Source: an uncultured archaeon (GTDB taxonomy: Archaea > Aenigmatarchaeota > Aenigmatarchaeia > GW2011-AR5). Taken from it: a DNA stretch of 6,287 nucleotides. Under the pieces are notes generated by a model. The model saw only the letters and a list, made by a program, of their open reading frames with translations. It did not search any database and had not been told where the DNA came from. This document shows positions 191 to 4,906 of this stretch, piece after piece (positions within the stretch are counted from its first letter, which is position 1; the number at the start of each line of letters is the position of its first letter). The translations under genes and the position numbers were made by a program. The stretch spans positions 1 to 6,287 of the forward strand of contig CAIKBN010000035.1 of NCBI GenBank assembly GCA_903825675.1, given 5' to 3'.

Positions 191-224
191 TTCATCGCAA
201 AGACAAGCTAAGGCTTGTCAAACT
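191..224 (-). other. tRNA-Ser intron in the variable arm
   Basis: 34-base intron at a non-canonical site. On the minus strand the junctions form a canonical bulge-helix-bulge: exon helix GAG/CTC, central 4-bp helix CATC/GATG, 3-base bulges ACA and AAG, then an inner G-C and T-G pair, a TT/TT internal loop and a perfect 7-bp hairpin GACAAGC-CTTA-GCTTGTC. Cleavage after the second base of each bulge gives a variable arm with a clean 4-bp stem and 5-base loop, which strongly supports the call. The archaeal splicing endonuclease EndA would remove it. It is too short to encode anything. Confidence 0.85.
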
Positions 225-654: not shown

Positions 655-1770
655 TTAGTGATGGGAAAAGAACCTTAGTTGCCCTGGCAGATCAACAAAA
701 GCCATGCCATATTCATTTGCTTTTGCCACTACTTTGTTAAAATTTTCTCCTCCGTGTGGAGCAAGTACTGCTGTGATGCCTAGGCTATGAGCAAGTTCGA
801 TTGAATCTGTTTGCGGGAAGAACCCGTCACTTATCAAAGAAGAGCCAGGTATACTATAATCAGCAACTCTTTTCAGGCCATTTTTCCTTGCGAACGCTTC
901 GGCGTCTCTATTTAGGGATGCAGCGATTGCTATACATGAAACTCTGTCTCTTTGACCTGTACCTATACCGGTAGTATAGCCGTTTTTAACAAGACGTATA
1001 GAATTTGATCTAAGTCTTATACGATACCCTGTCAAAAGGTCTCTTAACTCGTTTCCAGTAGGCTGTCTTTCTGAGACAACGTACCTTTTTAGTTCTTCAG
1101 TAGTCCCTATAGGTGTTAGAAGGGGATCGTATCTCATTAAGGTGCCATCTGGTTCTGACTTGTAACGAGGTCCAGAAGGGTCTCCTGTAAATCTGGGAAT
1201 AGCCATGAATTTTTCTGGGTTGTATTCAAATATTCTTATACTGCCTTTGAAACTATCCACTACACCTTCTTCATATCCTGGAGCGACCAAAACTTCTGTA
1301 AACAACTCCCTTATAGCTTCTGCTGTATCTTTGTCAATAGGCGTATTAAATACGTCTGCACCACCAAATGCTGCTTTTCGATCAGCATCACAAGCCTTTT
1401 CATATGTATCTACCAATGGTTTTTTTTCATACTGTGTTGCAAAGCCGCTTGGGTTTTCATGTTTCATAATTGCAACAGTTGGGGCATCGAAGAAGCCTAC
1501 AGAAACTGTTGCATAGATAATGTCTTCCATGTTGGTTAAGGATGGACCCTGTTTGCCTGTTTTAAGTTCTCGTAAGGTTCCTAAAAAGGTATCATGACCA
1601 TATTGTGCAGCTGTTTGTGAAGGATTATCTGCGTATCTAAGATCTTGTACTTTTCCAAAATAGCTCTGTACTACTCTGCCATCATTATATAGTTCTACTA
1701 TCAGTATACCATCAGGATGATCTCCTACATTCTTTGTTTTTAATGGATCAGGTATTTTTTCGCTGGTCAA
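655..1770 (-). CDS. purH: Stand-alone AICAR transformylase (PurH C-terminal domain type)
   Basis: Transfers a formyl group from 10-formyl-tetrahydrofolate to AICAR, giving FAICAR, the penultimate step of IMP synthesis in the cytoplasm. The protein has only the transformylase domain; the N-terminal IMP cyclohydrolase domain of bifunctional PurH is absent and is replaced by the neighbouring PurO. Visible family motifs in order: LRYADNPSQ (44-52, normally LRYGENPHQ), the catalytic pair K103-H104 in KHENPSG, AFGG (134-137), RSNSI (254-258, whose N256 aligns with the catalytic asparagine of ATIC), GIGTGQRDR (268-276), SDGFFPQTDSIE (314-325), and a terminal RFFSHH like the usual RHFRH end. The 371-residue length suits the single domain. 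Start: TTG at 1770, sharing TTGA with the purO stop, with GAGAGG (1779-1784) eight bases upstream; there is no ATG before the conserved region. Translational coupling to purO is likely. Confidence 0.88.
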   Translation of the reverse strand: MTSEKIPDPLKTKNVGDHPDGILIVELYNDGRVVQSYFGKVQDLRYADNPSQTAAQYGHDTFLGTLRELKTGKQGPSLTNMEDIIYATVSVGFFDAPTVAIMKHENPSGFATQYEKKPLVDTYEKACDADRKAAFGGADVFNTPIDKDTAEAIRELFTEVLVAPGYEEGVVDSFKGSIRIFEYNPEKFMAIPRFTGDPSGPRYKSEPDGTLMRYDPLLTPIGTTEELKRYVVSERQPTGNELRDLLTGYRIRLRSNSIRLVKNGYTTGIGTGQRDRVSCIAIAASLNRDAEAFARKNGLKRVADYSIPGSSLISDGFFPQTDSIELAHSLGITAVLAPHGGENFNKVVAKANEYGMAFVDLPGQLRFFSHH

Positions 1771-2564
1771 TCTAATCGCCTCTCGCCATGTATACTTTTT
1801 ATGCCAAATTCCCAGTTATTTCCTCCGCAACTAACAAAATTGATCCCGCTTATTGTACCTGCAACAAAGCGTTGGTCACATGATTCAAACAAATATCTGG
1901 CCAGGATTTCTGGTGTTAAGACGCCGTCAACAAAAGGAAGTTTTACAGTTGGTATTTTCTCCGGTGTGAAAAGATCAAGCTCGAATGGCAGCGGCACTCC
2001 TTTTTCGTTCTCTTTTCCATTGTATGTGGATACAAAAACTAGCTCTTCTGTCTTAGGTTCTACTTGAATAGCCTTAGTTATCCACGGTTCTCTTTTACCT
2101 ACTTCAACAGGTCTAACTATACCTAAATAATAATCAGGGTTAATATGTCCATTATATGAAATTACTCCTGCTATTCTTGGGGTGTTAACAGGTGTCCCAT
2201 CTTTTAATTTGTCATCTTCTGGGCCAAGCTTGTCTAAGATGTCTCTCAGAATAGCTTCTGTATGTCTATCTGAATTCATATATGCATTAAAAATATTTTC
2301 TGTGTGATAGCCGTTACTAACAATCAGTAAACCTGTTTCTTTATCTACCATAACAGCTACATAGTGTCTGTTTGTGTCGAATGATTCATTTTTATCTAAT
2401 GGTTCTGATCTGAATTGAACAGTTCCTCTATTCTCATATCTGACAAATTCACGGTCTTTGCTCAGTTTTGATCTGCCGCCAAATTTAAAAGCAAAACCAT
2501 CAAAATTCTCATACGATATTACAAGTCCGAGAACCCTTCCTAAATAACCATCATTAAGATTCAT
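1767..2564 (-). CDS. purO: Archaeal-type IMP cyclohydrolase (PurO)
   Basis: Closes the purine ring of FAICAR to give IMP, the last step of de novo purine synthesis. It resembles the PurO family (PF07826) rather than the unrelated PurH N-terminal domain: YLGRVLG near the N-terminus, VSNGYHT in the middle, NTPRIAGVI, YLGIVRP, and VSTYNG further on. From ATG 2562-2564 it is 265 residues, longer than the roughly 200 of the characterised methanogen enzyme; the extra length is mostly in loops and a C-terminal segment after FVSTYNG. A longer frame opens at TTG 2627, but the 21 added residues do not resemble the family, and a TATA box sits exactly where a leaderless ATG-2564 transcript needs it. The pairing with the transformylase gene (4-base overlap) supports the assignment. 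The family call is inferred from motif memory; no alignment was run. Confidence 0.83.
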   Translation of the reverse strand: MNLNDGYLGRVLGLVISYENFDGFAFKFGGRSKLSKDREFVRYENRGTVQFRSEPLDKNESFDTNRHYVAVMVDKETGLLIVSNGYHTENIFNAYMNSDRHTEAILRDILDKLGPEDDKLKDGTPVNTPRIAGVISYNGHINPDYYLGIVRPVEVGKREPWITKAIQVEPKTEELVFVSTYNGKENEKGVPLPFELDLFTPEKIPTVKLPFVDGVLTPEILARYLFESCDQRFVAGTISGINFVSCGGNNWEFGIKSIHGERRLD

Positions 2565-2586
2565 TATCAATAATCTTGTATTAATG

Positions 2587-2594
2587 CTTAAAAA
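2587..2594 (-). promoter_or_regulatory. TATA box for purO-purH (leaderless)
   Basis: Minus-strand TTTTTAAG is centred about 26 bases before the purO ATG at 2564, which would place the transcription start on or next to the A of the ATG. There is no Shine-Dalgarno sequence before that ATG, consistent with a leaderless mRNA. Confidence 0.55.
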
Positions 2595-2603
2595 TCTAGT
2601 CTG

Positions 2604-2609
2604 AAAAAA
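2604..2609 (-). terminator. T-run behind cbf5
   Basis: Six T in a row on the minus strand, 35-40 bases after the cbf5 stop codon, preceded by a GCG triplet, with more T following (TTTTT at 2590-2594). This suits archaeal T-tract termination of the gins-to-cbf5 transcript just before the purO promoter. It is inferred from position. Confidence 0.35.
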
Positions 2610-2644
2610 CGCGAAATTGTAATGCAATAGTAATGCCCTTGTGG

Positions 2645-4763: not shown

Positions 4764-4906
4764 TGACGCAAAATTGTCTGAAGCGATCACACTGACACAA
4801 AAACTGCCTGACGCACAACCAAAACGACGCACAGCAGTGCGTCATTGTGTTTGCGTCCTTTTGTGTTTGTGTCAATTTGTTTGTGCTTCTGTTTGCTTTT
4901 GCGTCT
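4764..4906. repeat. Imperfect ~140-base palindrome of 16-base units, centred on hairpin copy 3
   Basis: The gap between gins51 and rpl44e is a large imperfect inverted repeat. Its centre is the perfect hairpin GACGCAC-AGCA-GTGCGTC (4826-4843). To the left, GACGCA-like hexamers begin at 4765, 4780 (GAAGCG), 4794 (GACACA), 4810 and 4826. To the right, their complements begin at 4838, 4852, 4868 (TGTGTC), 4884 (TGCTTC) and 4900. The spacing is 14-16 bases throughout, so five units on each arm mirror each other. Unit consensus on the right arm is roughly TGCGTC-NN-TTTGTGTT. The spacers also match partly (for example TGACACAAA on both arms). It would form a long hairpin in the gins51-rpl44e transcript. 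Not a CRISPR: the units are contiguous and degenerate, without unique spacers. Function unknown. Confidence 0.8.

Follow-up and report, generated by a model that had tools for sequence, protein, structure and literature searches.

Short introns with bulge-helix-bulge (BHB) junctions at non-canonical positions have been described from the transfer RNA (tRNA) genes of Thermoproteales and other Crenarchaeota, where several may occur in one gene and introns of different tRNAs have sequence in common (PMC4033280, PMC4090602; here and below, citations refer to parts of the papers named). In a 2021 survey, the number of introns per gene was 0.84 in Thermoproteales against 0.21 over the archaea studied (PMC8450103). 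Outside Thermoproteales, intron-rich genomes have been published for Atabeyarchaeia and Freyarchaeia, Asgard archaea in which most tRNA genes are interrupted, often by more than one intron and at non-canonical positions (PMC11291895). Introns between the anticodon stem and the T arm are known from the variable arms of the two tRNA-Lys genes of Aeropyrum pernix (PMC4307357) and from site 45/46 (PMC4090602). In the literature searched, which mostly did not extend to subscription journals, we found neither tRNA introns of Aenigmarchaeota nor variable-arm introns of class II tRNAs described. Here we describe a well-supported predicted intron of this known kind, in an unusual place and in a lineage with an unusual splicing enzyme. 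It occupies positions 224-191 (minus strand) of a 6,287-nucleotide stretch, called the window as a whole (contig CAIKBN010000035.1, assembly GCA_903825675.1, an uncultured archaeon of the Aenigmatarchaeota), and interrupts the variable arm of a tRNA-Ser(GGA) gene. Like the A. pernix introns, it sits between anticodon stem and T arm, but the arm here is the long one of a class II tRNA: the intron lies in the arm loop, and the arm stem doubles as the outer helix of the motif. tRNA-Lys is a class I tRNA with a short variable loop. The introns of this host and its relatives share the general features of the crenarchaeal ones, yet they are found in an Aenigmarchaeota family, in class II tRNAs and together with a single enzyme of about 200 amino acids (aa); unlike Atabeyarchaeia and Freyarchaeia, the host is not an Asgard archaeon, and the parts cited on those two lineages mention neither variable-arm sites nor a splicing enzyme. 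We consider it very probable that 224-191 is a BHB intron which the splicing endonuclease EndA would cut and whose exons would be joined by the ligase RtcB.

The tRNA-Ser(GGA) gene (327-160, minus strand) is matched by the Rfam tRNA model RF00005 with 42.7 bits (E 9.8e-07) against a cut-off of 29; ARAGORN, run on the window without introns, found no tRNA. Cloverleaf and BHB pairing were scored with a custom solver that was given the gene and not the coordinates of the finding, and two implementations of it agree. Its top-ranked parse contains two introns on the minus strand, one of 49 bases at position 37/38 (intron 1, 289-241) and one of 34 bases in the variable arm (intron 2, 224-191), so that the second intron which a preliminary description had placed at 191..224 was recovered by an unguided parse. 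Exon 1 (327-290) provides the acceptor 5' strand, the D arm, the anticodon 5' stem and the loop up to position 37; the loop CTGGAAA, with the anticodon GGA at 293-291, identifies the gene as Ser(GGA). Exon 2 (240-225) holds position 38, the anticodon 3' stem GCATG and the 5' part of the variable arm (TGAGCATCAC), and exon 3 (190-160), which is also covered by the Rfam match, holds the variable-arm 3' strand, the T arm, the acceptor 3' strand and the discriminator G. The mature tRNA is 85 bases long and CCA is not encoded.

The junctions of intron 2 form the exact 3-4-3 motif that had been proposed. In the central helix, the exon strand CATC (230-227) pairs with the intron strand GATG (196-193) at all four positions, and the bulges AC^A and AA^G have three bases each. 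Six pairs between 236-231 and 189-184, drawn from the arm stem and its flank, make up the outer helix, and the inner helix consists of two pairs, a small internal loop and seven further pairs. A hairpin, GACAAGC-CTTA-GCTTGTC (219-202), lies inside the intron. The splice site is at variable-arm offset 10, after the sixth of the seven bases of the arm loop, just as the anticodon arm is spliced at 37/38; the canonical position itself is taken by intron 1. When the 50-base variable region was shuffled with its dinucleotides preserved, 3 of 1000 sequences reached the combined score. Excision leaves a mature variable region of 16 bases, TGAGC-ATCAC-GCTCGC, with the arm TGAGCATCACGCTCGC, as in three relatives (G002, G005 and G011). 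The restored GAGC-ATCAC-GCTC arm had thus been read correctly, and only the length before excision needs correcting, from 49 to 50 bases (234-185). The predicted cleavage sites of EndA are AC^A and AA^G, after which RtcB would likely join the exons; we infer that the gene is transcribed, cleaved and ligated in this way. Since the arm stem would act as outer helix and the arm loop would play the part of the anticodon loop, the BHB geometry itself would make the variable arm a docking site for such introns.

A gene that is decaying or unexpressed, with another Ser(GGA) gene in the missing part of the assembly, is the least likely of the readings we considered. The assembly is 78% complete and in 178 contigs, which leaves room for a second copy; against this, all stems are intact after in silico splicing, a pattern search of the genome gave one Ser(GGA), one Ser(CGA) and one Ser(GCU) gene, and among the 38 tRNA-Ser genes parsed from the family (see below) no genome, the window's own included, has two Ser genes with the same anticodon, Ser(GGA) among them.

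We then compared the gene with those of its relatives. A pattern search of 19 family genomes for the 3' ends of tRNA-Ser genes gave matches in 19/19. Forty-three records were kept for a GGCG or CAGCG end, of which three were excluded (one without an acceptor, one a tRNA-Asn and one with an unresolved 5' end); 40 loci were parsed, two misparsed ones (L103, L134) were dropped, and the 38 genes counted are drawn from all 19 genomes. Of the 55 introns in these genes, the D region accounts for 18, the anticodon 5' strand for 13, the anticodon loop for 17 and the variable arm for 7; three solver introns at arm offsets 13, 14 and 16 were judged by eye to belong to the T arm and are excluded from the 55. 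At least one intron is present in 35 of the 38 genes, or in 37 if T-arm introns are included. By eye, introns also seem present in the T stem or T loop of L119, L138, L140 and L103, and some tRNA-Ser genes span long distances (Ser(GCU) of G012, 331 bases; Ser(UGA) of G009, 294 bases). The expectation that introns of this kind are rare outside Thermoproteales-like archaea therefore does not hold for this family. The presence of two introns in the one tRNA gene was supported, as described. The DPANN-like nature of the host was supported as well, the EndA proteins of G002, G003 and G010 being labelled Candidatus Aenigmarchaeota.

Variable-arm introns were predicted by the same solver in 7/19 genomes, 5/10 genera and three isoacceptors: Ser(GGA) of G000 (the window's own genome) and G018, Ser(UGA) of G009, G007, G013 and G016, and Ser(GCU) of G005. 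Their offset is 10 in five genes and 11 in two genes of one genus. As the offset follows the BHB geometry of the solver, this agreement is partly a geometric rule and not proof of common descent. In the Ser(GGA) orthologs of G002, G005, G011 and G016, the TGAGC...GCTCGC arm is retained and uninterrupted. Within genus g9, the G018 arm minus its predicted intron (TTCCTGGAAACGGGAGC) is identical to the intron-less G014 arm. The introns are patchy inside genera, and their gain or loss therefore seems recent. These comparisons bear on the possibility that the insert is retained, giving the tRNA a variable arm that is long (50 bases) and branched. An unspliced arm still has the GAGC/GCTC pairing, and some variation in the length of this arm is tolerated by class II tRNAs. 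Retention is nevertheless very unlikely: the junctions match the 3-4-3 motif exactly, the mature variable region has 14-18 bases across the 38 parsed genes, and G018 and G014 differ by the clean presence and absence of an intron at the predicted boundaries.

Several points weigh against the spliced 34-base intron as we read it. The solver scores an alternative intron of 31 bases (227-197) at 31.4 against 31.5, and the exact ends therefore rest partly on the comparison with relatives. This alternative has an inner helix of four pairs, but only three of four pairs in its central helix; it leaves a 19-base arm unlike the 15-16 bases of G002, G005, G011 and G016, and falls outside the offset of 10-11 found in the six other genes. 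We give a real intron with these ends only a very slim chance, and prefer the 34-base ends because of the complete central helix and the 16-base variable region of G002, G005 and G011. Taken singly, three of the seven variable-arm introns do poorly in the shuffle test (46 per 1000 for G018, 76 for G007 and 43 for G013), the remaining counts being 3 for G000, 0 for G009, 4 for G016 and 8 for G005. Finally, endA gave no match in the window's own assembly, 78% complete as it is, and the EndA of the family lacks the lysine of the catalytic triad, which raises doubt as to how, or whether, cleavage occurs.

The enzyme would be the lineage's single EndA. PF01974 matches 53/59 relatives, and a 13-row profile was built from 13 of 20 EndA frames, three of the 20 (L030, L033 and L038) being faulty; this profile detects NEQ261 in PDB at 8.3e-09, and also ARMAN-2. 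With it, exactly one EndA gene was found in 16/19 family genomes, in frames of 197-235 aa (a protein of about 200 aa), including all five genomes that are at least 90% complete; G001 and G016, in which it was not found either, are both incomplete. No family genome has two matches to the profile, and the one extra PF01974 match in each of G005 and G008 is weak, below the cut-off and in an unrelated longer frame. The preliminary description had expected a heterotetrameric or an epsilon-2 enzyme. Neither was found in the 19 genomes: the profile gave no gene for the second, structural subunit of an (alpha beta)2 enzyme, of which a very divergent form could escape it, and no fused protein of about 390 aa as in epsilon-2. 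Nor does the intron by itself imply a broad-specificity enzyme, as had been argued. Strict BHB motifs are also cut by narrow alpha-4 enzymes (PMC4033280, PMC6379350), and a variable-arm intron alone therefore says little about the enzyme. RtcB is present in 18/19 family genomes, the window's own included (contig C38 of G000, E 2.8e-168). In eight of them (G009, G011, G012, G013, G014, G015, G017 and G018) RtcB is matched only in part or in separate pieces, in frames 827-1018 aa long, as if this exon-joining ligase were interrupted by inteins.

A better argument for broad specificity comes from the relaxed motifs elsewhere, including intron 1, which has two of four central pairs (inner helix 4, outer helix 7) and a dispersed hairpin inside. 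Only 11 of the 55 family introns satisfy a strict criterion and 44 do not, a number that overstates the relaxed motifs since the criterion ignores internal loops; 18 of the 55 have an outer helix of at most one pair. From these motifs we infer that the family EndA has broad specificity. It is possible, if rather unlikely, that this EndA is an ordinary alpha-4 enzyme for strict motifs only, the relaxed ones being left to a second enzyme that has escaped notice or to a partner cell; this would be compatible with a real intron, and it sits poorly with the 44 introns just mentioned and with the absence of the triad lysine from all 16 family copies.

In fold, the family EndA is closest to that of Methanocaldococcus jannaschii according to an AF2 model (pLDDT 79.9, pTM 0.78, from a 13-row alignment; the other four models gave 57-70), a predicted structure used for the fold match only. 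Alignment with the loop-less M. jannaschii enzyme shows no long insertion in the N-terminal half, where the ARMAN-type loop insert (ASL) would lie; ARMAN-2 has 3+4 extra residues there relative to the family profile. For the crenarchaeal loop near the active site (CSL, 15-18 residues), the comparison covered M. jannaschii, against which no long insertion was seen. A review describes Tyr, His and Lys as conserved in all four EndA types and the need for loop lysines beside this triad as unexplained (PMC6379350). The family EndA departs from this triad. The triad lysine of ARMAN-2, K282 (PMC12397907), aligns with Ala177 (numbering of the L024 protein), and Ala was read at this position individually in 16/16 family copies. 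Among 133 aligned EndA sequences (120 matches listed of 971 plus the 13 profile rows, some duplicated), the position is Ala in 133/133 and Lys in none, while His is kept in 133/133 and Tyr in 132/133. Two lysines of the loop between the catalytic Tyr and His (137 and 141) are present in 133/133 each, and an Arg or Lys directly follows the Ala in 133/133. Six other genomes of the class have Ala in four EndA proteins and Ser in two fused ones, whereas proteins that are epsilon-2-like by length and motif (404-455 aa), from other genomes in the class, keep the lysine in 7/7. Five same-class genomes (G022, G027, G032, G045 and G056) have two EndA types each, one of about 190-250 aa and an epsilon-2-like one with the triad lysine.

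The lysines of CSL and ASL are thought to position the RNA and perhaps to join in catalysis (PMC12397907); for this reason, replacement of the triad lysine by a lysine of the Tyr-His loop is a reasonable reading, and the basic residue after the Ala might also stand in. The closest described enzymes match the family in part. The catalytic subunit of Nanoarchaeum equitans EndA (3IEY_A) has a Tyr-His extension of the same length, six residues longer than in M. jannaschii, but unlike the family it has Lys at the triad position in the alignment and a separate beta subunit (PMC6379350). The epsilon-2 EndA of ARMAN-2 (4FZ2, PMC12397907) also comes from a DPANN archaeon with a broad intron repertoire and has a longer Tyr-His loop; it differs as a fused three-unit protein with the ASL insert and the triad lysine, whereas the family protein has about 200 aa and no insert.

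In the window's own genome, 15 of the 20 tRNA genes examined have at least one predicted intron. The tRNA model search gave 18 matches and missed the window gene, and a T-loop pattern added further genes. Besides the variable-arm intron, trusted non-canonical introns lie in Met (30/31), Ile(UAU) (29/30) and Ser(GCU) (near 8/9), with a weaker case in the D region of Gln(CUG). Parses of L018, L092 and L094 were not trusted, and L014 and L017 (at contig ends) and L081 were left unparsed. In the initiator tRNA-Met (L018), where the solver parse failed, a C at position 33 and a D-loop intron seem present by eye. ARAGORN, which ignored introns, found only one ordinary tRNA-Ile on 11 loci, and an Rfam search of L069 gave no match.

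A set of 71 introns, of which two had their ends placed by eye, was compared for shared sequence, with one set of shuffled queries as control. Twenty-five pairs matched at E <=0.01 and none did with the shuffled queries; in three of these pairs both introns belong to the same gene of sister genomes (G007/G013 twice, G002/G010 once). Intron 1 is 95% identical over 42 bases to the tRNA-Val(UAC) introns of G002 and G010, two introns tallied separately in other counts. It thus has sequence in common with introns of another tRNA, as translocatable introns do, and intron 2 does not, having no match among the 71. Intron 2 was also considered as a copy of a dispersed hairpin, and this was rejected: its sole match, at contig C30 of G009, is weak, 21 bases long and without a recognisable tRNA. 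The intron 1 hairpin (CAAACTTTT..AAAAGTTTGATCAAAA, window about 286-246) is a dispersed element in several family genomes (loci L040, L041, L052, L062 and L063), with copies in tRNA introns and also where no tRNA gene was seen. In the host genome, the long introns of two class I tRNAs, Gly(UCC) (L085) and Ala(GGC) (L094, bounded by eye), share 92 bases at 77%, which suggests intron copying or a common small RNA. Palindromes GACGCAC...GTGCGTC flank the window tRNA gene on both sides (341-360 and 111-130) and recur at 4825-4843, and comparable hairpins occur within or close to further tRNA genes of this genome (the L016 intron, L090, L068). Elsewhere in the window, AICARFT-like and IMP cyclohydrolase-like genes are adjacent and encode separate proteins (655-2627, minus strand), and further genes encode Cbf5/TruB with a PUA domain, an EMC3-like protein, L44e, a GINS protein and EamA; a Trm112-like open reading frame adjoins the tRNA gene.

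A 2015 review stated that no translocatable intron was known in class II tRNAs and argued, partly from this, that class II is recent (PMC4390854). Intron 1, in a class II tRNA, bears on this argument, being 95% identical over 42 bases to an intron of tRNA-Val from another genus. For the family, the variable arms are recurrent predicted insertion sites in class II tRNAs. We tentatively propose, at less than even likelihood, that in the sole EndA of the lineage the catalytic lysine has shifted its place: once in the helix that follows the triad His, it would now be part of a Lys-Gly-Pro-Lys loop lying between Tyr and His; the rebuilt site would accept relaxed motifs and may have let introns flood the tRNA genes, class II included, with the variable arm as a recurrent docking site and some introns carrying dispersed hairpin copies. 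A lineage that has the loop lysines and lacks the triad lysine makes the role of these loop lysines directly testable by mutagenesis.
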